This document shows, one piece after another, positions 3,001 to 24,833 of a stretch of DNA of 28,735 nucleotides. This DNA comes from a virus. The number at the start of each line of letters is the position of its first letter. The first letter of the stretch is position 1. The notes below the pieces were generated by a model. That model was not told the origin of the DNA. It searched no databases and saw nothing but the letters and a program-made list of their open reading frames with translations. The stretch covers positions 1 through 28,735 of the IMG/VR virus record IMGVR_UViG_3300020191_002080; one strand, given 5' to 3'. The translations under genes and the position numbers were made by a program.

Positions 3001-6000
3001 AATTTAAAAAATAGACAAATATATACTCGTGACGGACAAGGACTTTTAGAACTTCAAGAAGAACAGAAATCGATTGCCCACACAAGTGTAATGAAAGAGT
3101 ATGAATCACTTTTTATTACTGGTCAACGTTTAGCAGCCGAAGAAGAATTAAGAAAAAAGTACGGCGAATATAAAGGCATTATAGAGCAAAAAGTTGCCAA
3201 TGAAATAAAAACTATGGGTTTTACTGCTGAAGATGACACAGAGCTCCTAAAGCAACAAAGAGATCAAAAATATTTTTCCATTAAAGCTGACACTGATTAT
3301 ACATTGGCAGTTAATGCTGCTGCAAGAGCTCAAGAAGAATTTAACGCTAATTTAGATAATGGCAGGTTCTTACTAGATGCTAAGCACGAAATGGCTGAAG
3401 CAGAAAGAGATTACACAAGAACACTAGTAAAATTAAAAGCCAAACTTGCAGACAACTTCTTTTTCGAAGAAGGCCAAAGATCTGTAGACATGAAAAAGAG
3501 TACCGATCAAAGTGAAATGCAAAAACTTAAGGGCGAAAGGTCTGCTTACGAACAAAGGGGTGCCGGAGTAAGAGTTGCAGAAAAAGACCTTGAAATTGCC
3601 CGTAAACAAAAAGAAATAAATCTAGAGCTTGGTAAAGAAGCTCTATTCAGAGATACAATCACAGAAAGAATAAAAGAAAACAACCTTGCACTTGAGAGAT
3701 TTGGCGAAACTCTAGCCAATACAACTTTTGATGCCGTTGAAACTGGTTTTCAAGATTTATTTAAAAATATTACAGAAGGCACAATGTCTATGGGAGACTC
3801 TATAAAAAGTTTTGCTGGCGGCATAGCCAAAGCTGTTGGTGATGCCTTAACTGCTAGAGCCACAAAACAAATTACTACAGGAATAATGGAGCTTTTTGAT
3901 TTCAAGAATTCAGGCGGCTTAATTAAAGGTTATGCTTCTGGCGGAACCGTTGGTGGCTCCAATAAAGTCCCAGCAATGTTAACTAATGGTGAGTATGTTG
4001 TAAAGAAAAAAATTGTTGATCGCCTAGGCATTAATACTTTTGATAATATAAATAAATCTGGAACACTAGATGACTTATACAATCAACCAAACGAAGATCT
4101 TTTTGACTTACAAACTGAAGGTGCATCTCAAATGCCTCAAATTACACAAATGTCAAGTGGGGGACTTTTAGGTCAACATTTATTCACTAAAGATAACACG
4201 GTTGATTCAGGTTCTGCACAATATACAGATCAAGGCGTAATGAGCCCAGATCAAATGCATTCACTAGATCAAACTATCAGTAGGTTTAACGGTGGAGTAG
4301 TTAGTTTATTACAACATTTTAGAGATGGATCAACTGGTGGAGTTCAAGAAAAAAAATCCTGGGTCCAAGAAAAATGGCAAGCAACTAAATCTCATTTTAC
4401 TAGCGATGAAGCTAAAGATGCCTACCAGGATATTGCTGAAGGCGGTGGCTATATGCTAGGTAAATATTTAGGCAGCGACAAGTCAAATAAAAACAGCAAA
4501 GACAATGCTCCGATAGCTCCCGAACAATACAAAAAATTAAACGTTTCCTCTGCTCTGGATATTGACCCACAAAGCAATATGATGAGTGGCAGATTTAAAG
4601 CTAACGACCAGTACAGAAAAGATTACGGCCAATATTTGTTAGATAAATACGAATATGACATAGATCAAAAAAATCAAAAAGTATTAAATAGAATGAATCA
4701 ACTCAACAGTCTGGCAACCGGTTTCACAAGTATGATTGCTGCTAAAGGCTTAGGCAAACAACTTGACATAATGAAAGACGGAATGAAAGGCGGGATGTCT
4801 AACAAAGAATATCGAGCAAGTATGAAAAATCTACCCAAAGGTTGGGAACATAAGGGTTTTGTTAATCCTCCAAAAACAATGAATAAAGAAGGAGGTTCAT
4901 CTACTGCTCAAAAAGTTGGCAGTAAAACTATAGATATCAGTGGTTCTGGAGCTATATCTGGAGGCGGTAGTCAAAATAAAATTACAACTACATCTCAAGA
5001 ATTTGCAAATTATCAATCAAAGACCTACTCTAGAAATTTCAGCTCCAATATGCAAGACCTTTATGATAACATTTACAACAGCAATGAGATGAATAATGGG
5101 GGCGTAGTATCTTCGACTTTAAGCCATTTTAACCGTGGTGGATCTGTGAATAGTTCTGTACTTAACAGTAATCCATACTCTTATTTTAACCGTGGTGGAT
5201 CTGTGAATAGTTCTGTACTTAACAGTAATCCATACTCTTACTTTAACCGTGGCGGATCTGTGAGTAGCTCTGTATCACACAGTAATCCATACTCTTACTT
5301 TAACCGTGGTGGATCTGTGAATAGTTCTGTACTTAACAGTAATCCATACTCTTACTTTAACCGTGGCGGATCTGTGAGTAGCTCTGTATCACACAGCAAT
5401 CCATACTCTTATTTTAACCGTGGTGGATCTGTGAATAGTTCTGTACTTAACAGTAATCCATACTCTTACTTTAACCGTGGTGGATCCGTCAACAGTTCTG
5501 TATCACACAGTAATCCATACTCTTACTTTAACCGTGGCGGCTCCGTAAACAGTTCTGTATCACACAGCAACCCATATTCTTACTTTAACCGTGGTGGATC
5601 CGTCAATAGTTCTGTACTTAACAGCAACCCATACTCTTATTTTAACCGTGGTGGATCTGTAAGTAGCTCTGTATCACACAGCAATCCATACTCTTACTTT
5701 AACCGTGGTGGATCCGTCAATAGTTCTGTACTTAACAGCAATCCATACTCTTATTTTAACCGTGGCGGCTCCGTAAACAGTTCTGTATCACACAGCAACC
5801 CATATTCTTACTTTAACCGTGGTGGATCTGTAAGTAGCTCTGTATCACACAGCAATCCATACTCTTACTTTAACCGTGGTGGATCTGTCAACAATTCCTC
5901 TTGGACTGTTAATCCATACTCTTATTTTAACCGTGGTGGTTCTGTTAGTTACAATAACTCCTCAGTTAATTCTCATTCCATGCAATATATGAGCGGAGGA

Positions 6001-7177: not shown

Positions 7178-8343
7178 GTTTATTACCTTACGAAAATGTA
7201 CCTCTGTATCTTGCCGAAAAAGGTAAAGAGGGTGAGTACATCTTTGCAGAAAGAGCTTCACTGAACCTTAATCAATCAGTTTCAGTAGATCGTCAGATGG
7301 ACGATAACATTATTCAAATAGCTGCATATAGTGATGGGTCAACTATAGATTACTCTAGCCATACTTTTTTACCTAATGAAGATACCTTAATTACTTTAGG
7401 GCCAATAGGTGGTCCTCCGAAACCTATAGCTACTTCAATTTATTCCATAGAAAAAGATTCAAAAATAACATTTCCTAATGGAAAGCATTTATATTTTTCT
7501 AAAGAAATACGACCTTCAGGTAATGATTATGTGATTGAAGTTTATGCAAAGAGTGGGGGTTGGAGTTTAGATGAAAATGAATGTCAAAATGGATACTTTA
7601 ACCCAGAATTAGGTTATTCAGCAAAATCTCCAATAGAAGGTTCACTAGCAGTTGACTTTTATTTAAACACGGGAAACATGCCGAATTTTTTTAATATAAC
7701 TGGAATAGCTGACCCAACTAAATACCCTCCAATATCCAACGAATCAATAACTGGATTTTTGGGAGATTTTGAATTTCAGAATGCCTACTTATCTTCTTTC
7801 GCTTTTTCTGTTTCAGCTAATGCGATAGTTCAAGCTTCGGCTAGTTTTCAAATTTATGGTTTAATTAAAAAAAATACCGAGTTATCTAAAAACTATTATT
7901 CTTCAAGCTTGTATCAACAACAATCTATACCTCATGGTGAGAAAAGTCAAATCATAGGCATAAAAGCTTTAGGAATGGATTACGCCACTTCATTTTCTTA
8001 CTCCGCTCAAATTAATAGAGTTCCCAAATATTCATTACCAGAAGATGATGAAATTCCTGAATTTGGATTCGTTCCTTCTAGAGTCTCAAAAAGAGAGACT
8101 ACAGTATCTGTAAGTATAGAAGGCACAAATATAGATCCATCTATTATTAACAAAGCTTCAAAAAGAGAGAATGTTGAAATTTCATGTGAGCTATACGACC
8201 TTTCTTATCAAAACTATAAAAATAATTCGGCAGGTTTTATGCAAAAATTTGTTTGTAATGGAATGGTTGATAGCGAATCAATTTCTATCAACTCACTAGG
8301 CTTTCTAGAGGGTTCCTTTTCTATAACAAAATACATACAGTAA
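7174..8343 (+). CDS. Putative phage tail structural protein, larger paralog of the preceding gene
   Basis: A 389-residue protein whose ATG overlaps the previous stop in an ATGA junction, suggesting translational coupling. Residues 199-229 (FEFQNAYLSSFAFSVS onward, ending FQIYG) and 271-289 resemble the corresponding parts of the gene before it, so the two probably arose by duplication. It is about 120 residues longer, mainly through extra N-terminal sequence with a segment at 92-135 (SIEKDSKITFPNGKHLYFS and onward) that looks like a separate small beta domain. No catalytic motif, signal peptide or membrane segment is visible. Position among tail-tip genes makes a virion role likely. It could form a hetero-oligomer or consecutive rings with its paralog, which is inference. 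Confidence 0.55.
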   Translation: MSLLPYENVPLYLAEKGKEGEYIFAERASLNLNQSVSVDRQMDDNIIQIAAYSDGSTIDYSSHTFLPNEDTLITLGPIGGPPKPIATSIYSIEKDSKITFPNGKHLYFSKEIRPSGNDYVIEVYAKSGGWSLDENECQNGYFNPELGYSAKSPIEGSLAVDFYLNTGNMPNFFNITGIADPTKYPPISNESITGFLGDFEFQNAYLSSFAFSVSANAIVQASASFQIYGLIKKNTELSKNYYSSSLYQQQSIPHGEKSQIIGIKALGMDYATSFSYSAQINRVPKYSLPEDDEIPEFGFVPSRVSKRETTVSVSIEGTNIDPSIINKASKRENVEISCELYDLSYQNYKNNSAGFMQKFVCNGMVDSESISINSLGFLEGSFSITKYIQ

Positions 8344-9497
8344 TGGACTTAAGAAACACAGAAACTAATGGTATAAATGTTAAGCCTTCTTTTGGATCTT
8401 CAGCATCTTTTTCTTGCTCTAATAAATCTTTCACTTTTGGGGACAACTATACTACCATAATGCCCGATGGTATAAACTCATTAAAAATGAAATTAAATTT
8501 AAATTTTAATGATTTAATTGACAGTGAGGCATTAGACTTAATTTCTTTTTTTCAAAATCAATTTTACTATAAAATTCAAGATTATAATAACCTAGGCTAT
8601 TTTAATAATAAAAGAGTTCCAGCTTTTAGTTATTCTCCTTTTTATCCTTATAAGACAAATTTCTTTAATTGTGTTACTTATAATCATGAAAAAGTTCACT
8701 ACGATGTAAATTCTGTTACAGCATCACTCGAAGCTACTTCTGCAAGTTCTCTATCTAGTGTTGATAGTTTTCTTGCTTCCTATGACATTACAGCTATTGG
8801 GTCTTTGTCTAGCCCTATTGTTAATGCAAGTCTACATAACACATCAGACAGCAAAACTATACTATTAAACAGCAATAGTTATTTATATCACCCGACCTCA
8901 TACAAGTCATTTAGAGTTTTATCTGATGACATTTCCGTTTCTCCTGGAGCTACTCAAACGATTAACATTGATAATAGTCATGGGTTGTTCGAATCTTTCA
9001 ATGATGGGTTAACCAATCAAACGAATTTAAGAAGTTCAATTTTCATTAAAAAGCCACAACACTCTTCTTTTTTTCCCTACTCTCCCATCACAACTGAAAA
9101 TGACACGTTTGGTTTTTCTATGTTTGATTTCAGACCAAATCAGCAAACAAATTTATCTCATTCTCCTAAATTCAAAAAAACAACGATATCAGATTCTTAT
9201 TCTAAATATAATTTGTATGGATTTAACCCAAATTTATTTAATATGCAACTGAGTTTTAATGGAAGAAGTAATGAGGAAACTAAAAGGATTTTACTTTTTT
9301 TAGAAAGTCATTTAGGTTATAAAAAGTTTGGATTTCATATACAGAAAGATTATACATCTTCACCTTCTAATGACCTCAATAACACACCCCACAGAAAAAG
9401 TATGTCTTTATATTATTGCCCAGAATGGACTCATACCTTTACTTATTATAATAGTCACGATATTACTGCAACTTTTATTGAATGTCCTAGTTTTTAA
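8343..9497 (+). CDS. Minor tail protein, lambda gpM-like, internally duplicated
   Basis: Joined to the previous gene by a one-base TAATG overlap. Residues 29-131 follow the lambda gpM pattern: a K/F-x-FGDNY near the start, a D/AGIN turn (42-45), a beta strand, a helix ending ISFFQNQFYY, then FSYSPFYPYKTNFFNCVTY (95-113) and a closing strand. Lambda gpM is about 109 residues; this protein has 384. Residues about 290-381 repeat the fold pattern: MQLSFNGRSNEETKRILLFL (301-320), GYKKFGF, then LYYCPEWTHTFTYY and a final strand. The linker between them (about 135-260) is Ser/Asn-rich. I infer two gpM-like domains in one chain. In lambda, gpM acts in assembly of the tail tip just after H, which matches the position here. 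Confidence 0.7.
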   Translation: MDLRNTETNGINVKPSFGSSASFSCSNKSFTFGDNYTTIMPDGINSLKMKLNLNFNDLIDSEALDLISFFQNQFYYKIQDYNNLGYFNNKRVPAFSYSPFYPYKTNFFNCVTYNHEKVHYDVNSVTASLEATSASSLSSVDSFLASYDITAIGSLSSPIVNASLHNTSDSKTILLNSNSYLYHPTSYKSFRVLSDDISVSPGATQTINIDNSHGLFESFNDGLTNQTNLRSSIFIKKPQHSSFFPYSPITTENDTFGFSMFDFRPNQQTNLSHSPKFKKTTISDSYSKYNLYGFNPNLFNMQLSFNGRSNEETKRILLFLESHLGYKKFGFHIQKDYTSSPSNDLNNTPHRKSMSLYYCPEWTHTFTYYNSHDITATFIECPSF

Positions 9498-9513: not shown

Positions 9514-10419
9514 ATGAAAAGCTCTATATCCAAAGAAGTTTTTGCAGAAAACCCTTCCGCAATAATAACCCTTTTCAGGATTTCCTTATCTCAAAAAAGC
9601 AGAGGTAATAATTACTATTTTCATAGCGGTGAAAATGGTTACCAAAAAAGTATATATTATGATTCAGGTGAAAATGAATACTTTTATGTTCCTTTTTCTG
9701 CGGATGGCTTCACTTCTACCAATAGTGAATTCCCTAGGCCCACTTTGACATTTGATAATTCAGATGGTTTTTTTGGTTTAAAAACTAGGTTTTTTGATGA
9801 TTTTATAGGTTACAAAGTAACAAGGATTAGAACCTTTGTTAAATTTCTGCATGGCATAAACTTTCCAAATAATATAAATCCATTTGGCACACCCACAGAA
9901 GACTCTTTTCCTCATGAAAATTATATAATTAATCAGAAAACTCAAGAAAATAATAATATTATTTCTTTTGAACTATCTTCTCCCCTCGAAAAAGAGAATG
10001 CCTTCCTTCCTAATAGAAAAATAGTATACAATACCTGTCAGTGGATGTATCGAAGTCCTATTGGTTGCGGTTATTCTGGTATACCAAAAACAGACGGCAA
10101 AGGGAATCCATTCACTGGAGATGACGGCCTTTTTAGTTCGATAAAAGCAGGTAGCCCCCTGGAGTATAGCGGTAGTGCGACTTACAATAAAGGTGACTAT
10201 GTTAAAATTACTGATTACGAAAACCCTCAAAACGGATCGTCTTTTTATGTATGTCTTAAAAACGGAACTGTTGGTCATAACCCGGAATCTAATAAATCTT
10301 TATGGGTACAAGATGCTTGCCCTAAAAATATATCTGGATGCAGATCTAGATTTAACAACATAATAGAAAATAATAATGGATTACCCTTTGGAGGATTCCC
10401 AGGATCCTGGAAGCAATAA
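9514..10419 (+). CDS. Tail tip protein, lambda gpL-like, with Fe-S cysteines and a sugar-binding-like insert
   Basis: The 301-residue product closely follows lambda gpL (about 232 residues): PRPTLTFDN at 74-82, VTRIRTFVKFLHGINF at 102-117, NTCQWMYRSP at 173-182, CGYSG at 185-189 and DACPKNISGCRSRFNN at 267-282. Lambda gpL binds a 4Fe-4S cluster through four cysteines; the likely equivalents are Cys175, Cys185, Cys269 and Cys276, with the same seven-residue step in the second pair. Between the pairs sits an insert of about 70 residues containing ATYNKGDYVKI (222-232), SFYVCLKNG (243-251) and SLWVQ (262-266), a layout like small CBM5/12-type chitin-binding modules. No Shine-Dalgarno precedes ATG 9514; the leader is AT-only. 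The start is supported by the match beginning near the N-terminus. Confidence 0.85.
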   Translation: MKSSISKEVFAENPSAIITLFRISLSQKSRGNNYYFHSGENGYQKSIYYDSGENEYFYVPFSADGFTSTNSEFPRPTLTFDNSDGFFGLKTRFFDDFIGYKVTRIRTFVKFLHGINFPNNINPFGTPTEDSFPHENYIINQKTQENNNIISFELSSPLEKENAFLPNRKIVYNTCQWMYRSPIGCGYSGIPKTDGKGNPFTGDDGLFSSIKAGSPLEYSGSATYNKGDYVKITDYENPQNGSSFYVCLKNGTVGHNPESNKSLWVQDACPKNISGCRSRFNNIIENNNGLPFGGFPGSWKQ

Positions 10420-11128
10420 AGTTATTCTTTCTGCATTTAAACGATCATTAGCTTTTAATGATCGAGAAGAGTGTGGTTTATTTGCTTGGTCAGATCAATA
10501 TAGATTGAGTTTTGAATTTATACCTTTAAAAAACAATGATAGTTATGACAATAAATCTTTCATTACGTCTAGCTCAGACTATTATGACTTGTATGTAAAT
10601 GACAGAATCATATCCCTATTCCATAGCCATATAGATGACGACCCAACACCCAGCCCTTTAGATATAGAAATCGCAAAAAGCTTTTGCTTGCCTTCTTTGA
10701 TTTTTTCCAACAAAAACAAAAATACTTATCTATTTTATCCAGAATCCTATAAACCTAAAAAGTTAGAAAATAGGATTTTTATTCCATATTTCCAAGATTG
10801 TATTAGCTTTATTAAAGATTTCTTTTTTATTAATCTCGAGATTAATTTTTCAGAAACCATAAAAGACTGGTCAAGACCAAGAAATAATCCAAATGAAAAG
10901 CTGTTAAAATTAATTTCCTTGCATTTTAACGAAGTTAATTTAAGCGATATTAAGAATAATGATGTTGTTATTTTTTTTCCGACCGTTGATAACCTTTTTC
11001 ATTTAGGTGTTTTTGTTGAAAATAAATTCATCTACCACCACCCTTTTGAAGGTAGACCTAAAAAAGAATTATTTAATCAAACATTAACCAATAAAGTGTA
11101 TAAAGTATATAGGCATAAGGATTTATGA
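10376..11128 (+). CDS. Tail assembly peptidase, lambda gpK-like (JAMM domain plus NlpC/P60)
   Basis: A 250-residue protein with both domains of lambda gpK. The N-terminal JAMM metalloprotease motif appears complete: Glu31 in EECGLF, His83 and His85 in FHSHIDDD, then Ser93 and Asp96 after the expected seven residues. The C-terminal NlpC/P60-like cysteine peptidase has Cys142 in QDCISF, a DVVIFF strand at 196-201, His209 in FHLGVFV, and His221/222 as candidate third residue. NlpC/P60 enzymes usually cut peptidoglycan peptides; JAMM enzymes cut peptide or isopeptide bonds, and both have been suggested to act in tail-tip processing and cell-wall passage. The ATG overlaps the gpL-like gene by 44 bases, an unusually long overlap here, and has no ribosome site. 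The stop overlaps the next ATG. Confidence 0.87.
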   Translation: MDYPLEDSQDPGSNKVILSAFKRSLAFNDREECGLFAWSDQYRLSFEFIPLKNNDSYDNKSFITSSSDYYDLYVNDRIISLFHSHIDDDPTPSPLDIEIAKSFCLPSLIFSNKNKNTYLFYPESYKPKKLENRIFIPYFQDCISFIKDFFFINLEINFSETIKDWSRPRNNPNEKLLKLISLHFNEVNLSDIKNNDVVIFFPTVDNLFHLGVFVENKFIYHHPFEGRPKKELFNQTLTNKVYKVYRHKDL

Positions 11129-14100
11129 AAAGGTTTGTTTTATATGGGGAGTTAAGTGATAAATTTACTAAAGAAATTTATCTAGATGTTTCTACACCAA
11201 ATGAAGCTATCCATGCGTTATGCCTACAATTTAAAAATTTCAAATCTTATTTCATCTCCAAAATAAACTCTGGTGTAACCTTTGAATTTGTTGATACTCA
11301 AAACAATAATTACGATATAATTTTTGGCAACATTTTATTTAAAGATTCTGAGTATTCCTTAATGCCAAAAATCGCTGGAAAGCAGGGCTTCATGGGTGGA
11401 CCGATAGGAGGCTTTATATTAAATGCTGGTATGGGCTTTGCGATGCAAAAGCTATCTGATAAATTAAATTTCATGGAGGACGACGGTAAACCAGAGTACG
11501 AAATAATTACCACAAATTCATACATATATACCGACAATGACAATCGAGCAGAACAAGGATCTCCAATACCAGTAGTTTATGGTCAACTAAGAGTTGGAAC
11601 AAAAGTTATACACGCTAATGTTGAAAATCATGATTTTGATTTTAAAACAGCTCAAATATATTTGTCTGATGCCATTAGCTCAATAGATCCAAATATAGGT
11701 ATTAATAAAATTTTAACCAATTCACCAGATGGTCAAGACTTGAGGTCAATTACCTCCACTGATCAATTTCAAATATATAAGTATAACGACAAGAGGTCTG
11801 TTAATTTTGGTGGACAAAATAATGCTAAAACATTTAGCTCAGATCAAAATAATGAATCTTTTACTGAAGGTTACGATAATTCTTACTGGGCTGGGGAAAG
11901 ATATGTGTTTGGCCCTTCTGAATCAAAGCGAGTAACAAAAAGAAGCTCAACATCTACATTACCATCTTCTGACGTTGCAAGACCTTCAGTTTTTCCGCTA
12001 GTTGGTTTAGATGTGTCGATGAGACCTCAAGGAGAAAACGACCAATGTGTAATACATCATAGTAGTTCTGGGCCTAACGCTATTGCATTCAAAGCTCCTG
12101 GCACACCTATGACAGTTGGGTCTCGGGGAAATTATCAAAAACTAGAATCTATAAGTTTTTACAAAACGCTAGAAATTATATCAGAAGGCCCAATAGCTGG
12201 TCTAGCCATGCCAATAACTGGAGCAGTTGACAATGGAGAAGTTTCTTACCCTTTAACAATCCAACAGCCTGAATTTACTGAATACCAAATACAAATCAGA
12301 AACTTATCTTATTTTGAATATCCTGCTGGTATAGATCATTCTTTAGCAGACTCATTGGAGCCTGATGCCACTAATGGATTGCTTCATATTGTATCGTCAG
12401 GTTCAAAATATAAAGATGTTAATGGAAATATTTTAAATGGAACAAAAACCATATTAGCAAACTCTCAAGAATCCAATTCTGATAACTTGTATATTAGTAT
12501 AGACAAACCAAATAATACTCATTTAGCTAATATTGATAAATCTGAATTTTTAGATAAAAACCTAGAATCCATTTCAATATCTTCCAATAGAATTTTTAAA
12601 ATCACAGGCACGACGTTAGAGTTTAATGATTCTACTAATTTAAGCACTGGAGGAATTCCTTCTCAATATAGAGATGGAGATTATTTTTTATTAAAAGAGC
12701 TTTCAGATCAAACAGAACAAGAAAACAGTATTCAAGAATGGTCTGATGATTCATCGATAAATCAAGAAATTCCATTTTTTGAAGGCGAAGGCTATAATAG
12801 TAAGCCTGAGAATTTTGAAATGCATCCTCCATCAATACCTTTAGATTTTAGTTATCTTATAGATAAAAGAAGGCAGAGAGAAGATTGGTTTTCTAAAGCT
12901 AGAGCTTCTGATTTAGGTTCTTTAATGGGTATTCAGAAACCTCAATCTAATTTAGATATAGACTCAGCTTTGTCTGCTATAAATAGTAATGAAGCCACCA
13001 ATTTAAATGTTTATAATGGTGATGTTTCGTCCGTAGAGTACGAGCCTTATGGCGATGATTTCTTAACTCTCAGGGGTAACCATGTTGATCATTTAGGTAA
13101 TCCAATAACTTACGATAGAATGTGTCGCATTTACTTTAAAGGCACGAAAAATTCCACTTCAGTTTTAAGAAACTATAAGGACTTAGAGGTTTACTTGCAT
13201 GTAGGCTTTATTGAACGTAATGATGGTTATGCTTTTTTTTGCAATACTAAGAATATGCCTGAGGTTGATGGTATTGGTGGCCCTTCTGTAGAAACTTACA
13301 AAAATGAAATGATCGATACTTATGCATTAGGTGAAAGAGTTTCGGGTCCCGGGTCTTATAGTTATAAGATTGTTGAGTCTACACAAGGAGCCACATATTT
13401 TGTTCCTGCATTTTTAAAATTAGATTTACAGACATACATTTCTGCAGGTAAGGTCCCGACGGACTGGAATGGCATAGAAAACTGGTATGTACAAAAACAA
13501 ATTAACGGTAACTGGCAATACGATCAATTCGGAGCTGGAGCCTTCCCTTATCTTGCACGAACAATTATACCGCCATCAATAGAAGAAGCCCAAGTTTGGA
13601 CTAGATTTGAACGCTGGACATCTTCTCTTCCAACGGAATATGTCATATACAATAAATTCACTACAGATATTTATCAGCCAATATTTACTCAAGAACCTGA
13701 CGAAAATCCTGATAATTATGATTTCTACAATGAGCAAGTTGATTACCGCATTGGTGATATAGTAAAGATCCCTGGGGAGACGTATGATGTTATAGAATCT
13801 AATAGCTACAACCATATGTATAAAGCTATTACGAATATAACCTCAAAACCAGACAACGCTATTCTATGGACTTCTAGCCAAAGCTATATTGAGGGTAAAA
13901 TAGTTTTCCTATCAGAAGATCCAGATACTTTTTATGAAGCTCAACAAGATATTGAATCAGTATCTCTCGAAGGTTCATTTGCTAGTCAAAGTAATTTTAG
14001 TACATTTTTCGAAGAAAACACCGCAATATTTTCAGAAGGTGATGCTTATAAAATTGACAATGATAATGGAATCACTGTAGTTTACGAAGTTACAGACAAC

Positions 14101-17100
14101 TTTAGAAAGATAACTTCTCCAACTGCTTGGAGCGACTCGGTCAGTTATATAGTAGGTTCTACAGTTGATTTTAATGGCACAATTTATATCGCTGACGGCA
14201 TTAATGATCCTGACGTAGGCCAGGATCCGACGCAAAACACAACTGATTGGAGCGAGTATGACTGGAACGATTACAAGCCTTGGATAGATAGTCATAACAA
14301 ATGGAAAACAATCTCTTATCACGAACCAGGAGAATCTAATGCTTGGCTTGAATATGAATACAATACAATGGACCCTCTAGAAGATGCTGATGAATCGATA
14401 TGGAGATTCGTTGAATTAACAGCCATACCCCCACCTCAAAGCGTAAAAGAGTGGGATTATTATGGAGACTATCAATCAGGCGATCAGTTTATTTATGATC
14501 GTAGAATATATAAAGTATTAGAAGATATTGTTTCACCGTTACGAGAAGCTCCTTTTGCTGACACAAATAGGGATAGTGATGAACGTGTATTTGAACAGCC
14601 ATTACCTGAAGGAGCTATTCAACTCGCATTAGATCCGCCTCAATGGGATCGAGATAAATTATATACTTATGGTGATAAAGTTCATTTGAGAGACCCTGAA
14701 GATGGCTCAAAAGCTTACTATATTTATGATAAATGCACTACTGAAAAAGAAAGAACTCGATCACCGTTAACTTTGCTAAATTGGAAACCAATTAGTTACC
14801 CTAGTCCTATTTTCGGATCTAGAAATAATTACAGATGGATTATTGACTATCAAGACAAATCTGAATCTGATGTTGTGGAGTTTCAAAAAACAAGTTATGC
14901 TAGTTTAGTGCCATTAGTTAGATTCGCAAGTCCCTTCTCTTACCCGTTATGGAATTCTACAAACGAATATCAAGGCTTTTATTTCCAAAGAAAATATTCT
15001 GGTTATTCCAAAGCTAAAACATTTGAAGAAAATTTTCATGCTTTTCGCAATGCAGCTCAGAACGGAAATTCTTATACTTTATCAAGAGTAGATAAATCTT
15101 TTGTTGTAGTTCAATATGAAGGGCAACTCTTCAAGTTGAAAGATGGAGAATATATTGGTCCTCCGGAAGATGATCCTAGGTTGGCTACTGTTAGTTCAAG
15201 TACTGTTGACTGCATTTTTGATGCGGCAGGCAAGAGAATAACATCTTCGCAGGTATCTCTAGTTAATGATTTTGAAGATGATATAAATACTGATGAATTT
15301 GCAGATCTTCCGACGATTGAAACTACAATAATTGGGGAAAATGGCGACCCTATAACTTACTCTTCTCCAGAAATAACATACCCTGAATATGATCCACCGA
15401 TAGACTCAAATGGAAATGTTCACCCTAAATGGGAAAAAATTATTCCCCATGAAAGACCTAGTGTTAATGATTCAAGGTTCGAAGTTAATGAAGTCTGGAT
15501 GCAAGCTGGCAGAACTATTGATGAATCTTCTTTTGATTTATCTAATTATAAAGCTCAACCTCTAAACAAGTTTTACCACAGCAAAGATGGCGTCTTCTTA
15601 CGAAAAGATCCACCACCCACCAATGCAGGAGGTATACTTGGAGCTTTAGCTGGGCTATTCTCCAAAGTTAAAGGTATATACCAGTCTCCTAGGCTTGAGC
15701 ATAGAATTCAATACAAGCACACACCTTGGCTTGATCTAATCGGTAACGCTGGCTCTAATTTAACGATAGGAGATTTCATTAGAGAAGTGTATACCAATCA
15801 AAGAGGTTTTTATGAAATAAAAATCAAGAAATTTTACAAAAAAATTAAATATGAGCATCACGCTGTCAATGCCATGCCTTGCTATCACCCAAACGGTGAA
15901 AATTTTAATGAAGCAATTATTGCTGCTTTCTCTCAAGCTAACCCTGATCTCAAAGATTTTTTTAATAAAAACTTATTAGTTAAAGAGCCTAGGGTTTCTA
16001 ATAGTAGAATTAGAAGTAATGTTGTATCCAGCCAAAAAGATCACGATGAAATTCAAGCTAAAATGTATAAAACTCTCAGAACTAGATGTTTGAATTTTAC
16101 TGTTGGTGTTGGTGGTCACCCTCATCCATTTGCATCTGATGATGAGGCTAATTATTATTATGGCGGAGAGGATTATGGATTCCCTAGTTATCATTTACAG
16201 TCTCATAAATTCGTTTCTGAACAAAATGGTTTCTGGGGAGAAAGTCTAGAGACATTAAATAACATACAGTTCTTACAGGTAGGACCAACCCCTCAAGATT
16301 ATTCTGTTTTTCCTAGAGGATTTTACGATGCCGATTTATTTCCAAGGGTTACGGTATTTATTTTACGTAAAAGAAATAGTACCAGAATAGACATAGTGCC
16401 AACTTCCATAGAAGCTTTTGCTGAGATTGATCCCGCTAGCAAAAATGTTAAAAATATTTATTTATTGAGAGTGCCATCTAGATGTGTTTACGATTCTATC
16501 TTAACCACGAAATGGAATTATATTTCACCAACATCATACAAAAACTCAAAACCAAGTGTGGTATTCGGTGAAGAACCTTTTCAAGACGTAGGTGTTTATT
16601 TGAAGATTGATGGTAGTCATGGTTATTACTCTATTTCTTTCAATAATACAGAATCTACTGGAAATAACCTATATAGTATTTCTAATTCATCAAATGTACC
16701 AAGCAATAACACTTTCGGTCTAAAAAATGGATGGGCCAGCCATGTAGAACATGATAATGTAAACCCAAACCAAGATTTAGGTATGTATAAAAACAATGCA
16801 GTATTGGATTTAGTTAGTTATGCACCTTATTCTGATTCAGCTAAAATTAGAATTACCACAGAGTCTATAAATGTATCTAGCGGATTAGATAAAAGATTTT
16901 ATTCTTCAGCTATTCCAAACACCATCAATACTGGTAGAATTGTAGATTTTAGTGTTACAAATAAGGGTTCTGGCTACTCACAAAGGTCTTCCGTTAGTGT
17001 TTATGACAATAGTTACATTATTAGAGCAGTAAATGTAAGCGGGAATGAGCGGGGTTATCTTCCTCAATTAACCTTCAGTATACTAGGCCTACCTAAAAGT

Positions 17101-20100
17101 AAATTTGATAACACTAATCTATCAATCGCACAACTCAAAGAGTATGTAACTGTAAGTTTGATATTAAAAGCTTCTTATAGAGGCAGAATAGAAGGGGATC
17201 AAAATAGAACTGGAAATGCTGCCGACAATATAGCTTTATCTCAAAAAGGTTTAGCTATATACAGGCCAGGCACAGGTTTTTCTGGACCAAATGACACTGT
17301 TATATTCTTAAACCCTGATTATTATCCTGATTTTTCTAATGAACAAAAAAATAGAATAAATCAAATCAAAGATGCATTAGATTCAGATTTAAGTATTTTA
17401 AATGAAGCTGAAAACTTATTGCCCGATCATGCTTTACCTAAGTCGCCTTTCATTGCTCTAGCGGAAAAACAAAATGGAAGTGTTTTTAAGTTCAAGCAAA
17501 TTCAAAAAGGTGAAGGTTTTAATATTTACGAACCTTTACCAAACTTATTCGAACCACCTATTAAAAATTTAGTTAAATTTATAGCTGACTTTAAAGATGG
17601 ATCACTAGAATCCTTGAAGTTAGATCTCAATCAAGAAGTTGTTAATTACTCAAACAAAGATGATAATGTAAAGTTAGTATTTGCTCCTCCAATTCTACTT
17701 GGTTCAGATATGCCAGAAAATGAACCTTCTACAGATCCATATAAAAAATTTAGGTCAATTTATTTAAACGATGTCCCAATTCGTGACCACACACAAAGAT
17801 TTAACTATTCAAAGTTTCACTTTGATATGCGCATAGGTCATTTCAAAAATGCCACTTCCACTTTTCCAATTGAAGGCACTCTTGCTACAGAAGCTAGAAG
17901 TTCACTAATTTCTGATGAATTTAGGATACCTAATTACACTTCTTTTATAAATTACCCATTATATGCCCCAAGAAATGAGGGCGAAAAAGATTATTTTTAT
18001 TCATACACAATTAAAAATCCAGACATAACAGATGTAAGTTTTTCCATAAAGATAAAAGAACTACATTATATATATGAAGGAGACGAATCTGTTCAATATA
18101 TGAATTTAATTCCTATAATTGGTATGGTTCTTGGCTGGATGATTGGAACATGGATGGCTGAGAAGTTGTTAGATTTAATTCCAGATATAACCTTCGGTTT
18201 TGGTTTTGGCGCTGTAAGCGGTTGGACTATACCTGGAATCCGTGGAATTATTGAATCGGCTTTAAATGCACTAACTTATGCATTCGTTATCGCGGGAGGA
18301 GTTCTTGGTGCGTTAGCTGGAATAGAACTAGCTAGAAGTGCATTTAAATGCTCTCAATTACCTTGGCTTTGCATAAAAATTGGAGAGCTTATTAAAAATA
18401 GTGGAGAAATTTGGCCAGCAAAAATGAGAATTGCAATAGAGCACGGTTTAGAGGGAGAAACATTACTAACTGATTCGGTGATATTTTCTGGATGTGTTAC
18501 ATCTCCATATGTTAAAGATATTTATATTAAAAATTTACCAAAGGCTAAACCGTTAAATTCTTCTTCTAGAATATTTAAAAATAGAATTTTTAGAATATAT
18601 AGAATTACCAGGGAGCTTGATCCGGTTGAGGGAGGGCTTGCTGAAGCTAGATTTAAAATTGATTGTGAATTGCTTTCTGCCACTGAATATGTTGGCGGAT
18701 TTTTTGCGTATCCTAGTACCGCAATTATGGCTACTAGATTCAATTCAAAAGATTTTCCATCCATCCCCAAAAGAGAGTATATAGTTAAAGGAAAGCTAGT
18801 CAAGGTTCCTTCAAATTATAATCCAACCGCCCGCTCTTACTCTGGTGCCTGGAATGGATCTTTTTCTAGCAAGTTAAAATGGACCAGTAATCCAGCTTGG
18901 GTTATTTACGATTTGCTTGTTAATCAAAAATATGGAATGGGCAAATATGGAATCACTGAAAGTGACATTGACAAATGGTCTTTTTATTTGTTTTCTCAAA
19001 AATGCGATGAACTCGTTGATGTTTTTGTTGATGGCTTACTCACTAAAGAAAGAAGGCATATGTGTAATTTATACATGGATTCAGAATCTGAATCTTTTGA
19101 GTATATTAAAAATTTACTTAACATATACAATGCATCTATTAATTTTGCTCAAGGTAAAATAGCTCTTGTTCAAGATGCACTTTCTTTTTCCGGGCCAATA
19201 ATGTTCTTTAATAATTCAAATATCTCAGAGTCGGGTTTCACTTACTCAACTTCTCCTCGAACAAAAAAAATCAGTGCAATCACTATTGATTATTTAGATG
19301 AAAGGGATAATTATATGCCTAAGAGTGAATATGTTGAGGATTCAGAATTAATAAAACTTTTTGGCTACTCTCACACCAGGGTTGCTGCTAATGGAATTAC
19401 TAGAAAAGGTGAAGCTTTTAGGTTGGGATGGAGTAAATTACTTTCTCAAAAATATGCAAAAGAATTAATCTCTTTTACTTCTGGATTAAAAGTTGCCTAT
19501 TTAAGCATTGGTGATATTATTGAAGTTCTTGACAATAATAAAGTTTCTAAGCATTCCGGGGGCAGGATTATGAAAATAATAGATAGCCATACTATTGAAT
19601 TAGATATACCAACAGAAGCATTTTCTGGAGAAGTTGATTCTTTACTTTTGGAAGTTGATGACTTTGTATACCCTTCTTGGGATTCTAGTACCAACTATAC
19701 TATACCTTCCACGGTTGTTCACAAGGGTTCTCATTATATTTTAATTAAAAATCCAGAATTTAAAATATCTCCAAATTTTGATCCAGATCACTGGTCTTTA
19801 ATTTCAAATGAAAATTTACGAAAGACCAGGGTTGAATCTTTCAAAATTAATTCTGTTAATGGGTTTCAAGTTTCGTTTGTAAATTCCATAAATAACACAT
19901 CAGCAGGTTACTCCTGGGTTATCAAAGAAAACTCAAACCCTGAAGATTTAATAGAACCAAAGCAATATAGAATAGAAAAAATATCAGAAAAAAACGATAT
20001 TGAGTATGAAATATTTGCATCTGAATATAACAAAGATAAATATATAGCTATTGATCAATTGTCTAGCAGCAATATGTCCCTAGGTGACTTTGATATTCTT

Positions 20101-22458
20101 GATGATGATTATGACGATCATTTCGTAAAAATAAGTGCTCCAGCCACTCAAACTCCAACTCCTTCTATCACTCCAACAATCTCAATCACTCCAACAATAT
20201 CAGTTACTCCATCAGTTACAATAACACAAACAAGCACAATTACTCCAACAAGTACGATTACTCCAACAAGCACAATTACTCCAACAATCTCAATCACTCC
20301 AACAATATCAGTTACTCCATCAGTTACAATAACTCCAACAAGCACAATTACTCCAACAAGCACAATTACTCCAACAATCTCAATCACTCCAACAATATCA
20401 GTTACTCCATCAGTTACAATAACACAAACAAGCACAATTACTCCAACAATATCAGTTACTCCAACAATATCAGTTACTCCAACAAACACAGTTACCCCAA
20501 CAAGTACGATTACTCCAACTATATCAGTTACTCCAACTATATCGGTTACTCCAACAAATACATTTACTCCTACAAGTACAGTTAGTCCAACTATATCGAT
20601 TACTCCTACAACAACACCAACCATATCGATTACTCCTACAACAACACCAACCATATCAATTACTCCTACAACAACACCAACCATATCGATTACTCCTACA
20701 ACAACACCAACCATATCGATTACTCCTACAATAACACTAACCATATCGATTACTCCAAGCATAACGCCAACTATATCAGTAAGCCCAACTATTTCGATAA
20801 CTCCAAGTAACACCCCAACTCTGACCCCTACTCCAAGCATAACGCCAACAGTCAGTTTCCCTGCTGGAGCATTAAATCTTACAGTAGATCAAACTACACT
20901 TTACGTTGTTGAGGGTCAAAGTTCCCAAGTTCGGGTTGTTCGCACTGTTGATGATGTATCCTGGAGGGGGGAAGTTAGAATTCGTTATAGTTTAAGTGTT
21001 TACGATAACTCTTCTTTATCTGCAGATACATCAGACTTCGTAGAAAGAAGTCGAATTATTACATTGAAAGGCAATCAATCAGAATTTTTTATTCCAATAA
21101 GAGCCAAAGCTGACAATGTAGATGATGATTATGAGGTATTTGCTTTAACTATTGAGCCTTTAGATCTTGATTCAAGAACAAATATAACTACAGTAAACCT
21201 TTATCCCCAAGACGTTTACACGTCAAAAGGTTGGAGTACATTAATTTCTATATATCCACCCACACCACCTTTTAGTCTAAGTAACACCCCAACTCTGACC
21301 CCTACTCCAACAATTTCGATCACTCCATCCATTACTCCTTCAATTAGTACAACAATTTCAGTAACTCCTGTAATCACCCCAAGCACAACGCCAGAACCTA
21401 GTTTTACTCCAACCGTTACTATTACGCCAACAATAGAAGAAACTAGAACTCCCACACCTACAGTTACCCCAACCATATCAGTTACTCCTAGAATAATTCA
21501 AGATTTGAATGTTAACTTGAACGCTTATGCTATAGTTTCAGAAGATAATACAACGATTGATTTTGATCGCGATGGTACTTCAGATGGAACGCGCCAGACT
21601 TTAAAAATAAATGTTTATCGATCAACCGGTGCAGCTACAGATTTGTCTATACCTTTTGATTTTACAATTAAGATTTTTAAGGATGTGTCTGATAACGCAA
21701 CCCTAGATGACCTTAATCAAGAAATTAGAAATGCTGAAGAATTTGACGACGATGCCAATACTTGGGTATTGTCTGATAATATAGTTTACGAAAATAGATA
21801 CAGTTTTGATGCTGAAGAATCAGAAAAATTAATAAACATCTCAACCAGAGATGAATTTTCTAATATGAGATTCACTGAAGATGATCTTACTCCTGAAGGT
21901 CTAGAGAGCTTAACTTTAGTTATTGGTGATTATAAATTTCCTGGTACTGATGAAAGATTAAGTTCAAGCCCGCAAAATGTAACTTTCGAAGATTTTAATG
22001 AAGATTTAGATATGTGGGTGGATAAAACTGTCAAAGTATACATAACTGATAATGACATAGTTTGGATTTTAACTTTTCTAGATGAAAATGGCGATAATAT
22101 TACAACTAATATTTCTATAACAAGGGAAGATTTTCTTGGCGATAATACCTTTCCGTCATTACCTATTGAAACTTTAGAATTAGAACCTATTGATGATGAC
22201 GGTTCGATGGGTTATCGTATCGCTGAAACAGAAGGAGATCTTGGGCGCTTTAGGGAATCAAACTTAATAATTGATGCTGGAGGCCTTAATTTTGACACTC
22301 TTATATATGATGATCAAGAAATTAACATCAGCACTTGGATAACTTCTGAAGACGACCACACTATTATACGCTTATTAGAAACGGATACATTTTTCCACCA
22401 AATCATTGGACTCATAACTAGACCTGGCATCCATCGCATTACCCTTAAAATTGAATGA
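11125..22458 (+). CDS. Giant tail tip/host-specificity protein, gpI-gpJ fusion (3777 residues)
   Basis: Starts in an ATGA overlap with the gpK-like gene. Residues 1-115 match lambda gpI: LYGEL, TPNEAIHALC, and a Gly-rich end GGPIGGFILNAGMGF. GpJ-type sequence follows: SPIPVVYGQLRVGTKVI near 147-163 and IISEGPIAGL (351-360). The main J core is at 2515-2700: FFAYPSTAIMATRF, KLVKVPSNYNP, NPAWVIYDLLVNQKYGMGKYG (2589-2609), KCDELVDVF and AQGKIALVQDAL. Large extra regions separate these parts: YxxGDxV/W modules near 1000-1050, 1172-1222 and 2850-2892, a GSGY strand motif (1945-1951), and a hydrophobic region at 2326-2400. The C-terminus has a Thr/Ser-Pro tract (3005-3244), a Calx-beta-like domain (about 3250-3365, with VVEG and DDDYEVFALTIE), a second tract (3378-3458) and an unknown domain. 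Lambda gpJ has 1132 residues. Role: tail tip, receptor binding and probably membrane contact. Confidence 0.88.
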   Translation: MKRFVLYGELSDKFTKEIYLDVSTPNEAIHALCLQFKNFKSYFISKINSGVTFEFVDTQNNNYDIIFGNILFKDSEYSLMPKIAGKQGFMGGPIGGFILNAGMGFAMQKLSDKLNFMEDDGKPEYEIITTNSYIYTDNDNRAEQGSPIPVVYGQLRVGTKVIHANVENHDFDFKTAQIYLSDAISSIDPNIGINKILTNSPDGQDLRSITSTDQFQIYKYNDKRSVNFGGQNNAKTFSSDQNNESFTEGYDNSYWAGERYVFGPSESKRVTKRSSTSTLPSSDVARPSVFPLVGLDVSMRPQGENDQCVIHHSSSGPNAIAFKAPGTPMTVGSRGNYQKLESISFYKTLEIISEGPIAGLAMPITGAVDNGEVSYPLTIQQPEFTEYQIQIRNLSYFEYPAGIDHSLADSLEPDATNGLLHIVSSGSKYKDVNGNILNGTKTILANSQESNSDNLYISIDKPNNTHLANIDKSEFLDKNLESISISSNRIFKITGTTLEFNDSTNLSTGGIPSQYRDGDYFLLKELSDQTEQENSIQEWSDDSSINQEIPFFEGEGYNSKPENFEMHPPSIPLDFSYLIDKRRQREDWFSKARASDLGSLMGIQKPQSNLDIDSALSAINSNEATNLNVYNGDVSSVEYEPYGDDFLTLRGNHVDHLGNPITYDRMCRIYFKGTKNSTSVLRNYKDLEVYLHVGFIERNDGYAFFCNTKNMPEVDGIGGPSVETYKNEMIDTYALGERVSGPGSYSYKIVESTQGATYFVPAFLKLDLQTYISAGKVPTDWNGIENWYVQKQINGNWQYDQFGAGAFPYLARTIIPPSIEEAQVWTRFERWTSSLPTEYVIYNKFTTDIYQPIFTQEPDENPDNYDFYNEQVDYRIGDIVKIPGETYDVIESNSYNHMYKAITNITSKPDNAILWTSSQSYIEGKIVFLSEDPDTFYEAQQDIESVSLEGSFASQSNFSTFFEENTAIFSEGDAYKIDNDNGITVVYEVTDNFRKITSPTAWSDSVSYIVGSTVDFNGTIYIADGINDPDVGQDPTQNTTDWSEYDWNDYKPWIDSHNKWKTISYHEPGESNAWLEYEYNTMDPLEDADESIWRFVELTAIPPPQSVKEWDYYGDYQSGDQFIYDRRIYKVLEDIVSPLREAPFADTNRDSDERVFEQPLPEGAIQLALDPPQWDRDKLYTYGDKVHLRDPEDGSKAYYIYDKCTTEKERTRSPLTLLNWKPISYPSPIFGSRNNYRWIIDYQDKSESDVVEFQKTSYASLVPLVRFASPFSYPLWNSTNEYQGFYFQRKYSGYSKAKTFEENFHAFRNAAQNGNSYTLSRVDKSFVVVQYEGQLFKLKDGEYIGPPEDDPRLATVSSSTVDCIFDAAGKRITSSQVSLVNDFEDDINTDEFADLPTIETTIIGENGDPITYSSPEITYPEYDPPIDSNGNVHPKWEKIIPHERPSVNDSRFEVNEVWMQAGRTIDESSFDLSNYKAQPLNKFYHSKDGVFLRKDPPPTNAGGILGALAGLFSKVKGIYQSPRLEHRIQYKHTPWLDLIGNAGSNLTIGDFIREVYTNQRGFYEIKIKKFYKKIKYEHHAVNAMPCYHPNGENFNEAIIAAFSQANPDLKDFFNKNLLVKEPRVSNSRIRSNVVSSQKDHDEIQAKMYKTLRTRCLNFTVGVGGHPHPFASDDEANYYYGGEDYGFPSYHLQSHKFVSEQNGFWGESLETLNNIQFLQVGPTPQDYSVFPRGFYDADLFPRVTVFILRKRNSTRIDIVPTSIEAFAEIDPASKNVKNIYLLRVPSRCVYDSILTTKWNYISPTSYKNSKPSVVFGEEPFQDVGVYLKIDGSHGYYSISFNNTESTGNNLYSISNSSNVPSNNTFGLKNGWASHVEHDNVNPNQDLGMYKNNAVLDLVSYAPYSDSAKIRITTESINVSSGLDKRFYSSAIPNTINTGRIVDFSVTNKGSGYSQRSSVSVYDNSYIIRAVNVSGNERGYLPQLTFSILGLPKSKFDNTNLSIAQLKEYVTVSLILKASYRGRIEGDQNRTGNAADNIALSQKGLAIYRPGTGFSGPNDTVIFLNPDYYPDFSNEQKNRINQIKDALDSDLSILNEAENLLPDHALPKSPFIALAEKQNGSVFKFKQIQKGEGFNIYEPLPNLFEPPIKNLVKFIADFKDGSLESLKLDLNQEVVNYSNKDDNVKLVFAPPILLGSDMPENEPSTDPYKKFRSIYLNDVPIRDHTQRFNYSKFHFDMRIGHFKNATSTFPIEGTLATEARSSLISDEFRIPNYTSFINYPLYAPRNEGEKDYFYSYTIKNPDITDVSFSIKIKELHYIYEGDESVQYMNLIPIIGMVLGWMIGTWMAEKLLDLIPDITFGFGFGAVSGWTIPGIRGIIESALNALTYAFVIAGGVLGALAGIELARSAFKCSQLPWLCIKIGELIKNSGEIWPAKMRIAIEHGLEGETLLTDSVIFSGCVTSPYVKDIYIKNLPKAKPLNSSSRIFKNRIFRIYRITRELDPVEGGLAEARFKIDCELLSATEYVGGFFAYPSTAIMATRFNSKDFPSIPKREYIVKGKLVKVPSNYNPTARSYSGAWNGSFSSKLKWTSNPAWVIYDLLVNQKYGMGKYGITESDIDKWSFYLFSQKCDELVDVFVDGLLTKERRHMCNLYMDSESESFEYIKNLLNIYNASINFAQGKIALVQDALSFSGPIMFFNNSNISESGFTYSTSPRTKKISAITIDYLDERDNYMPKSEYVEDSELIKLFGYSHTRVAANGITRKGEAFRLGWSKLLSQKYAKELISFTSGLKVAYLSIGDIIEVLDNNKVSKHSGGRIMKIIDSHTIELDIPTEAFSGEVDSLLLEVDDFVYPSWDSSTNYTIPSTVVHKGSHYILIKNPEFKISPNFDPDHWSLISNENLRKTRVESFKINSVNGFQVSFVNSINNTSAGYSWVIKENSNPEDLIEPKQYRIEKISEKNDIEYEIFASEYNKDKYIAIDQLSSSNMSLGDFDILDDDYDDHFVKISAPATQTPTPSITPTISITPTISVTPSVTITQTSTITPTSTITPTSTITPTISITPTISVTPSVTITPTSTITPTSTITPTISITPTISVTPSVTITQTSTITPTISVTPTISVTPTNTVTPTSTITPTISVTPTISVTPTNTFTPTSTVSPTISITPTTTPTISITPTTTPTISITPTTTPTISITPTTTPTISITPTITLTISITPSITPTISVSPTISITPSNTPTLTPTPSITPTVSFPAGALNLTVDQTTLYVVEGQSSQVRVVRTVDDVSWRGEVRIRYSLSVYDNSSLSADTSDFVERSRIITLKGNQSEFFIPIRAKADNVDDDYEVFALTIEPLDLDSRTNITTVNLYPQDVYTSKGWSTLISIYPPTPPFSLSNTPTLTPTPTISITPSITPSISTTISVTPVITPSTTPEPSFTPTVTITPTIEETRTPTPTVTPTISVTPRIIQDLNVNLNAYAIVSEDNTTIDFDRDGTSDGTRQTLKINVYRSTGAATDLSIPFDFTIKIFKDVSDNATLDDLNQEIRNAEEFDDDANTWVLSDNIVYENRYSFDAEESEKLINISTRDEFSNMRFTEDDLTPEGLESLTLVIGDYKFPGTDERLSSSPQNVTFEDFNEDLDMWVDKTVKVYITDNDIVWILTFLDENGDNITTNISITREDFLGDNTFPSLPIETLELEPIDDDGSMGYRIAETEGDLGRFRESNLIIDAGGLNFDTLIYDDQEINISTWITSEDDHTIIRLLETDTFFHQIIGLITRPGIHRITLKIE
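14122..14800 (+). other. Sugar-binding-like module cluster inside the J-like protein
   Basis: Two clear copies and some weaker ones show the small CBM5/12-like layout: Trp, about six residues, Y-x-x-G-x-x-V, a turn, Y-x-A, then a distal Trp. Copy one has AWSDSVSYIVGSTVDFNG starting near residue 1001 (14125), then IYIAD and DPTQNTTDW. Copy two has QWDRDKLYTYGDKVHL (from residue 1173, 14641) and LLNWKPI (Trp1220). Weaker versions appear at 13735-13960 and 14448-14560. Binding to chitin or another polysaccharide is a family inference from the motif, not shown. Confidence 0.5.
18099..18324 (+). other. Hydrophobic hairpin-like region in the tail tip protein
   Basis: Residues 2326-2345 (YMNLIPIIGMVLGWMIGTWM) and 2379-2400 (ending AFVIAGGVLGALAG) are long enough and hydrophobic enough to span a membrane. 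A Gly/Phe-rich turn, FGFGFGAVSGWTIPG, lies between them. They sit just upstream of the gpJ core. I infer a membrane-interacting segment used at infection, because virion proteins of this type are otherwise soluble; a buried trimer core is the alternative. Confidence 0.55.
20137..20856 (+). repeat. Mucin-like Thr/Ser-Pro tandem repeat tract in the J-like gene
   Basis: About 240 residues made almost entirely of Thr, Pro, Ser, Ile and Val. Basic unit is 18 bases (xTPTxS). From about 20605 to 20760 the unit is 30 bases, ITPTTTPTIS, in exact register. A higher-order pattern is also visible: the same CCATCAGTTACA segment starts at 20209, 20317 and 20407, steps of 108 and 90 bases. The + strand is very poor in G. 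Such tracts act as extended linkers and are typical O-glycosylation substrates. The open frame on the opposite strand across this tract is a by-product of the repeat. Confidence 0.95.
21256..21498 (+). repeat. Second, degenerate Thr/Ser-Pro linker tract
   Basis: Encodes about 80 residues of mixed TPT, ITPS, SVTP and TPEP units between the Calx-beta-like domain and the C-terminal domain of the J-like protein. A SNTPTLTPTP block is shared with the end of the first tract (20805-20834 and 21280-21309 are nearly the same DNA), suggesting copying between the tracts. Less regular than the first tract. Confidence 0.9.
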
Positions 22459-23789: not shown

Positions 23790-24833
23790 ATGCTAATGAA
23801 TATATTATTAACTGCGACTTTTAATAGAAGTTTATTTGTAAATGGATTGAATCAAAATATCGTATTCTTAGCGGAGATGCTTAAGGATATGGGGTATAAT
23901 GTTTCCATTTGCGTAAACCATGATGTAGAAGAATGCCAAGATCCTCCCTTGGATATTTTAATCATGGAAGAACATGAAATTGGTGATTATGAATTTGATT
24001 ATATTTTGCAAACCGGATCGTTATTAAAAAAAGAAACGATTGATATCGCAAAAAGTAAAAATCCAAGATGTAAGCATGTTCACGTGCATTACGGTAATAG
24101 ATTAATGACTGATGTCGAGTTGTGTGATTCAACAGATAAAATGGCACTTAATACTCACAAGGTAGATGAAGTCTGGGTGTCTCCTCATTATTCTTTTTCT
24201 ATTCCTTATTTACAAACTTTTTACAATATACAGAAAGTCTTCACTATTCCTTATATATGGAGCCCTAAGTATATGGATTTATCACAAAGATATAAACCTG
24301 GTCAAGACAAAAACATTGGTGTCATGGAGCCCAACCTCAATATGACTAAGAATTGCTTGATACCTATCTACTTAACAGAAGCAGCCTACAAACAGGAGCC
24401 CCACTTAATAAACAGGTTAGAAGTTCATTGTGTTTCTAAATTCAGGGAAAAATTATACTTTAGAAGTTTAATGTCAAAACTAGATATAGTTAAACATAAT
24501 AAATCATTTTTTGGTGATAGGATTTCAATGAAAGATATATTTAATACATCGAATGTTATTGTTTCCCATCAACTACTTAATTCTTTAAATTATGTATACC
24601 TTGAAGCTTTATATCTAGATATACCTATTATACATAATTCTTTCGATATTAAAGAGGTTGGTTATTTTTACCCTGGTTATGATATCAATACTGGAGCTCA
24701 ACAGTTAATTAGAGCCTTAAAATTTCACGACGACAATATAGATACATATAGGTCAGCAGCTAAAAACGTATTGCATAAATTTTCTCCTAACAATGACCGT
24801 GTTCGAGAGCAATATAGAAAGTTGCTTTCATGA
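23790..24833 (+). CDS. DUF2827-like GT-B glycosyltransferase, first of two paralogs
   Basis: The 347-residue product has the GT-B outline I associate with DUF2827: FVNGLNQNIVFLAEML (16-31) near the N-terminus, a nucleotide-sugar half beginning with NVIVSH (255-260), and YLEALYLDIPIIHNS (270-284), which matches the E-x-L-x-x-x-x-P-x-I-H-N acceptor signature of this family. It probably transfers a sugar from a nucleotide donor; substrate and acceptor are unknown. Two close starts exist, ATG 23790 and ATG 23796; the second gives MNILLT, closer to MKIGIT in the paralog, and is perhaps the real one. No ribosome site precedes either. No signal peptide or membrane segment is visible, so it should act in the cytoplasm. 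Confidence 0.8.
   Translation: MLMNILLTATFNRSLFVNGLNQNIVFLAEMLKDMGYNVSICVNHDVEECQDPPLDILIMEEHEIGDYEFDYILQTGSLLKKETIDIAKSKNPRCKHVHVHYGNRLMTDVELCDSTDKMALNTHKVDEVWVSPHYSFSIPYLQTFYNIQKVFTIPYIWSPKYMDLSQRYKPGQDKNIGVMEPNLNMTKNCLIPIYLTEAAYKQEPHLINRLEVHCVSKFREKLYFRSLMSKLDIVKHNKSFFGDRISMKDIFNTSNVIVSHQLLNSLNYVYLEALYLDIPIIHNSFDIKEVGYFYPGYDINTGAQQLIRALKFHDDNIDTYRSAAKNVLHKFSPNNDRVREQYRKLLS

Follow-up and report, generated by a model that had tools for sequence, protein, structure and literature searches.

Background

In phage lambda, the Fe-S domain of the tail tip hub protein gpL lies on the outer surface, and the cluster is held by Cys173, Cys182, Cys205 and Cys212 (PMC10721106). The cluster is widely conserved in gpL and its role is an open question (PMC10721106); the C-terminal region of the protein has been remarked on for its hypervariability (PMC13243795). 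The insert that splits the corresponding domain in the hubs of RcGTA and roseophage R4C owes its description as oligosaccharide-binding to similarity with a domain of phage LKA1 gp49, and it resembles a domain of the T4 hub (PMC7296036, PMC10276861). Hayes et al. (2018), as cited in PMC8540738, reported functional carbohydrate-binding modules (CBMs) among those inserted in Dit proteins, and a carbohydrate-binding module of the A-1(L) neck fibre did not bind the host in the assay reported (PMC10966104). In the CBM5 family, chitin is gripped by an almost fully conserved aromatic pair (Y282-W283 in CjCBM5), which is separate from the aromatics of the fold core (PMC8449059). Our literature search for a CBM in gpL found no relevant paper.

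Here we describe a gpL homolog from an uncultured phage in which a small domain of predicted CBM5/12 fold lies between the two cysteine pairs. The window, that is, the whole stretch of DNA analysed, comprises 28,735 nucleotides (positions 1 to 28,735 of IMG/VR virus record IMGVR_UViG_3300020191_002080).

Results

A gpL homolog in a lambda-like tail operon

The operon is lambda-like, with a tape measure gene, genes for two tube-like proteins, a gpM homolog, gpL, a gpK homolog and a gpI-gpJ fusion, so that the gene order M-L-K-I-J of the gpL family is present at this locus. The features referred to below, all on the + strand, are:

8343..9497, +, gpM homolog (distal tail protein), two gpM-like halves fused (PF05939, E 1e-14)
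9514..10419, +, gpL homolog, tail tip hub protein, 301 aa (PF05100, TIGR01600, phrog_18, lambda gpL 8iyk_L)
9514..10011, +, N-terminal hub domain (HDI-like), residues 1-166 (VIA-align matches to hub N-domains)
10036..10068, +, first cysteine pair, C175 and C185 (aligned with lambda C173/C182)
10069..10143, +, linker after C185, residues 186-210, of variable length (clade alignment)
10144..10314, +, inserted domain of predicted CBM5/12 fold, residues 211-267 (AlphaFold2, Foldseek, VIA)
10252..10254, +, Cys247 of the insert (C in 42, A in 13 and S in 1 of 56 distinct inserts)
10318..10341, +, second cysteine pair, C269 and C276 (all four Cys kept in 127/129 rows)
10376..11128, +, gpK homolog, JAB plus NlpC/P60 (phrog_30, E 3e-19; PF14464 and PF00877 weak)
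11125..22458, +, gpI-gpJ fusion, central fibre protein with CBM_5_12-like repeats (phrog_32, phrog_31, PF02839)
14125..14190, +, best PF02839 CBM_5_12 stretch within gpJ

The identity of the 301-aa product is supported by matches to PF05100 (Phage_tail_L; E 5.3e-33, 114.5 bits against a cut-off of 25), TIGR01600 (E 6.2e-40, 136.8 bits against a cut-off of 70.75) and phrog_18 (E 4e-54), and lambda gpL (8iyk_L) was its top match both in the PDB sequence search and in fold searches. Residues 1-168 match the hub N-domains of lambda, T5, RcGTA, R4C and JBD30 (VIA-align).

Several other features of the window were recorded. The gpM homolog contains an internal tandem duplication (residues 1-145 against 245-384; hhalign probability 97, E 2.4e-11) that also occurs in related sequences of the window clade; by analogy with the fused distal tail protein of JBD30, three duplicated copies could form a six-domain ring. 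About 14 copies of a 57-bp (19-aa) tandem repeat (NSNPYSYFNRGGSVNSSV) are found at 5128-5945, close to where the tape measure ORF ends. The region after the tail genes (23790-28320) encodes a DUF2827 protein (Pfam E 1e-65), another ORF that resembles it on visual inspection, and a glycosyltransferase in three parts (GT25, GT8, GT34-like), and at the contig end (28497-28735) a 108-bp repeat, with copies 99% identical, lies in a fibre-like ORF.

Four cluster cysteines are kept while the distance between the pairs varies

The product contains cysteines at positions 175, 185, 247, 269 and 276. When it is aligned to 8iyk_L, C175/C185 fall opposite the first lambda pair and C269/C276 opposite the second, and the alignment breaks exactly at the insert; the cysteine spacing is 10/84/7 in the window against 9/23/7 in lambda, with 83 residues separating the pairs (C185 to C269) as compared with 22. 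We collected 129 full-length homologs (IMG/VR, GenBank phages and genome contigs), and the four cysteines are present in all but two rows (127/129), the exceptions being the two gpL copies of L087, one partial E. coli phage record. The sequence-only reading had proposed that the cluster cysteines 175, 185, 269 and 276 are retained, and both the lambda alignment and the homolog rows bear this out. One of the two exceptional copies (L087:70-939; Escherichia phage vB_EcoS-885R8, ON470602.1) has S, A, A and S at the cysteine columns and adjoins the second, truncated gpL copy.

The length between the pairs is bimodal, with 21-22 residues in 69 rows (which include lambda and six other cultured phages), 67-127 residues in 60 rows and no intermediates; the four-cysteine rows divide into 67 of lambda type without the insert and 60 with it, proportions that do not represent natural frequencies because the homologs were gathered by pattern, one pattern lying within the insert itself.

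The insert has a conserved motif and a variable linker

In practically all insert-bearing homologs, the motif W..[ST].Y..G[DN].V...[FY]Y[VF][CA]....P....W..D reaches the third cysteine. Its Y, G, P and W are invariant among 45 inserts, the equivalents of Y224 and W264 included, and the final W is present in 56/56 distinct inserts; such Tyr and Trp residues have a core role in the CBM5 fold (PMC8449059). An HMM built solely from the inserts of other clades recovered the window insert from a six-frame translation of the window at E 3.4e-14, the best match in the reversed-sequence control having an E of 0.75, and the pattern is thereby ruled out as a product of chance. Together with the alignment break, this result upholds the earlier proposal of a YxxGDxV...FYVC...W insert between the pairs. 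Its placement stood and its bounds had to be adjusted, the folded domain covering residues ~211-267 after a 25-residue variable linker.

Cys247, which had already been noted as a cysteine of the insert's own and is indeed present in the 301-aa product, occupies the alignment column of the YxA alanine in chitin-binding domains and is itself replaced by Ala in some inserts; judged from these alignments, it is probably a buried residue and no ligand. A role as fifth cluster ligand is unlikely, since the position is Ala in 13/56 and Ser in 1/56 distinct inserts.

The insert is predicted to adopt a CBM5/12 fold

An AlphaFold2 model of the full protein, built with 44 homologs, gave pLDDT values of 86-97 across residues ~190-270 and below 50 for residues 161-174, and the insert modelled alone had a mean pLDDT of 83. 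With the insert alone, Foldseek returned 2d49 at probability 0.99, and the VIA list was headed by S. griseus chitinase C (1wvv_B; Z 7.3, 1.3 A over 45 residues), with more CBM5/12 domains below it, as well as CBM5/12-like ones from phage fibres and tailspikes; Z scores of 6-7 are weak by themselves, and the weight of the result lies in one family topping the list and in coverage of the whole domain. In the full model, residues ~214-268 superposed (VIA-align) on the chitin-binding domains of a Vibrio chitin deacetylase (4nz1_A, 1.3 A over 46 residues) and of S. griseus chitinase C (1.7 A over 45). That the insert would fold as a CBM5/12-like unit had been put forward as a check, and the models of both the full protein and the insert alone agree with it. 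On these models, which are of high confidence, the insert is predicted to be a small beta domain in its own right, with a CBM5/12 fold.

The Pfam profile search gave no PF02839 match for the window insert, and PF02839 matched only 6/44 gpL homologs at E <1 (best E 0.063). Direct sequence searches of the insert against PDB or Pfam CBM families found nothing significant, and in the PHROG search no model covered it. The inserts do match the CBM repeats of gpJ (hhalign E 5e-6, probability 86), which in turn match PF02839 and PDB chitin-binding domains, so that the sequence link between insert and CBM5/12 is an indirect one that runs through the gpJ repeats. The gpI-gpJ fusion as a whole matches PF02839 at E 6e-7, phrog_32 at residues 1-170 and phrog_31 at E 6e-98. 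This protein (11125-22458) is very long, with 3777 aa, several CBM_5_12-like repeats and Thr-Pro-rich repeats at 20170-20806.

Related modules were also encountered in other settings. Among related loci, L004:5229-5813 encodes a gpM homolog with an N-terminal module like the gpL insert (insert HMM iE 5e-4), weaker matches occur in L005, L074, L075 and L176, and L068:3980-5752 encodes a 591-aa gpL homolog with the insert and a long C-terminal extension.

Distribution of the insert

In a tree of the core calculated without the insert, 33/34 insert-bearing representatives form one group (support 98/94) that is separate from every short form and consists of uncultured phages. The remaining insert-bearing representative, L064, comes from an unrelated lambda-like operon and is placed among the short forms. 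Constraining all inserts to one clade gave an AU p of 0.105, so that a single origin is still allowed. No insert was found among cultured phages by tblastn; ON470602.1, considered as a cultured carrier, consists of two joined gpL copies. Of two scans of genome contigs for prophages and hosts, the first gave no match; the second turned up three loci, all from metagenome-assembled bins, plus a short form from Roseococcus.

Sugar-binding residues and selection

The position of the chitin-gripping aromatic pair is non-aromatic in 55/56 distinct inserts (K249-N250 in the window) and carries an aromatic in only 1/56; the fold-core aromatics are retained. With that pair missing, sugar binding by the insert is putative. 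The sequence-only reading had described a sugar-binding-like module, a view that stands for the CBM5/12 fold and its site and finds no support for sugar binding, the pair being absent across the family. Purifying selection acts on insert and core alike (median dN/dS ~0.07 and 0.05, respectively), the insert's dN is 1.8 times that of the core, and identity within the window clade is 0.46 for the insert versus 0.65 for the core. The alignment further indicates that an inter-strand loop of the insert is highly variable in length.

Discussion

A proposed role for the inserted domain

Our preferred reading, to which we give about even odds, is that of a gpL hub with a CBM5/12-fold domain in the inter-cysteine loop that most likely serves weak multivalent adhesion. 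The domain would be built into the loop between the cysteine pairs, and the four cysteines would clamp both loop ends around a [4Fe-4S] cluster, the presence of which is suggested by their conservation. With the loop ends so clamped, three copies of the domain should protrude as knobs, and by the lambda structure these would be displayed on the outer surface of the trimeric tip. As the tip approaches the cell, these knobs would most likely adhere, weakly and multivalently, to some conserved glycan or surface polymer, together with the similar modules in gpJ and, in related phages, also in gpM. The functional CBMs of Dit proteins and the outer position of the Fe-S domain in lambda speak for this reading; the absence of the chitin-gripping pair from 55/56 inserts, the low Pfam CBM_5_12 score of even the best gpL member (E 0.063) and the A-1(L) module that did not bind its host speak against it. 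The low dN/dS does not suit a receptor binder that diversifies; a weak ligand that is conserved, or else a structural role, would fit better.

The second of these roles is the alternative that we regard as a real, if less probable, possibility: the CBM5/12 fold would act as a structural part that packs on tip proteins (gpI-J, gpM or fibres), stabilising the cone or docking a protein, with no sugar involved. The family-wide absence of the chitin-binding aromatic pair and the strong purifying selection on the insert both favour this alternative, and phage domains of the same fold occur in tail fibres or baseplates of Milano, 7-7-1 and Pa193 and in tailspikes. However, the highly variable length of the inter-strand loop, the lower identity of the insert than of the core within the window clade and the external location of the Fe-S domain in lambda all speak against it.

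We consider it improbable that the insert is instead the OB-like domain of the RcGTA and R4C hubs, drifted from a common ancestor. The site is the same and the cysteine spacing nearly equal (9/82/7 in JBD30 and 10/84/7 in the window), but the insert matches chitin-binding domains, and the RcGTA, R4C and JBD30 hubs align with the full model (VIA-align) only over residues 1-168, although a lacking match to the insert does not by itself prove a different fold. Finally, that residues 200-265 are merely an elaboration of the core gpL fold of all homologs can be dismissed, for the insert, universal as it is in the window's own clade, is absent from 67 four-cysteine homologs of lambda type, including lambda and six other cultured phages, which have only 21-22 residues there, and AlphaFold2 models it as a separate domain matching CBM5/12.

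The inter-cysteine loop as a possible docking slot

Beyond the adhesion reading, we tentatively suggest that the gpL inter-cysteine loop may be a recurrent docking slot for unrelated domains, in which the Fe-S cluster would act as a loop-closing staple that allows exchange without disturbance of the hub. Its occupants would be OB-like or beta-sandwich domains in RcGTA, R4C and JBD30, and a CBM5/12-like domain in the large clade of uncultured phages and perhaps, a second time, in the lambda-like L064. Homologs that have a domain between the ligands, and others that lack one, form a clear series on which this staple role can be tested.

Comparison with known systems

Lambda gpL (8iyk_L; PF05100, TIGR01600) shares with the window protein the N-terminal hub domain, the four cysteines spaced 9-10 / x / 7 and the order M-L-K-I-J, and differs from it in the stretch that separates the pairs, which has 22 residues and holds no further domain. 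The RcGTA hub g13 (PMC7296036) and the roseophage R4C hub (PMC10276861) are closer in architecture, since their Fe-S ion-binding domain is likewise split, by an insert of ~82 residues, a likeness of site that rests on published residue ranges; their insert is described as oligosaccharide-binding (OB-like), whereas that of the window is CBM5/12-like. The upper baseplate protein gp50 of JBD30 has 81 residues between the pairs Cys147/156 and Cys238/245 (PMC11445458), but its domain II is described as a beta-sandwich with a helix. With the CBM5/12 domains of S. griseus ChiC, S. marcescens ChiB and V. cholerae chitin deacetylase (PF02839), the insert has the fold and the core Tyr, Gly and Trp in common; unlike them, it lacks the exposed aromatic pair after YxAK and sits in a loop of a tail protein. 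The evolved Dit proteins of siphophages of Gram-positive bacteria also carry a carbohydrate-binding module within a tail-tip ring protein (PMC8540738), although the carrier protein and the CBM families are different and no Fe-S loop is involved.

The hub inserts of RcGTA, R4C and JBD30 and the evolved Dits thus provide precedents for the insert architecture. What is new is that the gpL Fe-S loop carries a CBM5/12 fold, that this arrangement is spread through a clade of uncultured phages and that none of the cultured phages searched has it. The CBM-like decoration of evolved Dit proteins thereby gains a counterpart in uncultured phages, at the gpL Fe-S loop.
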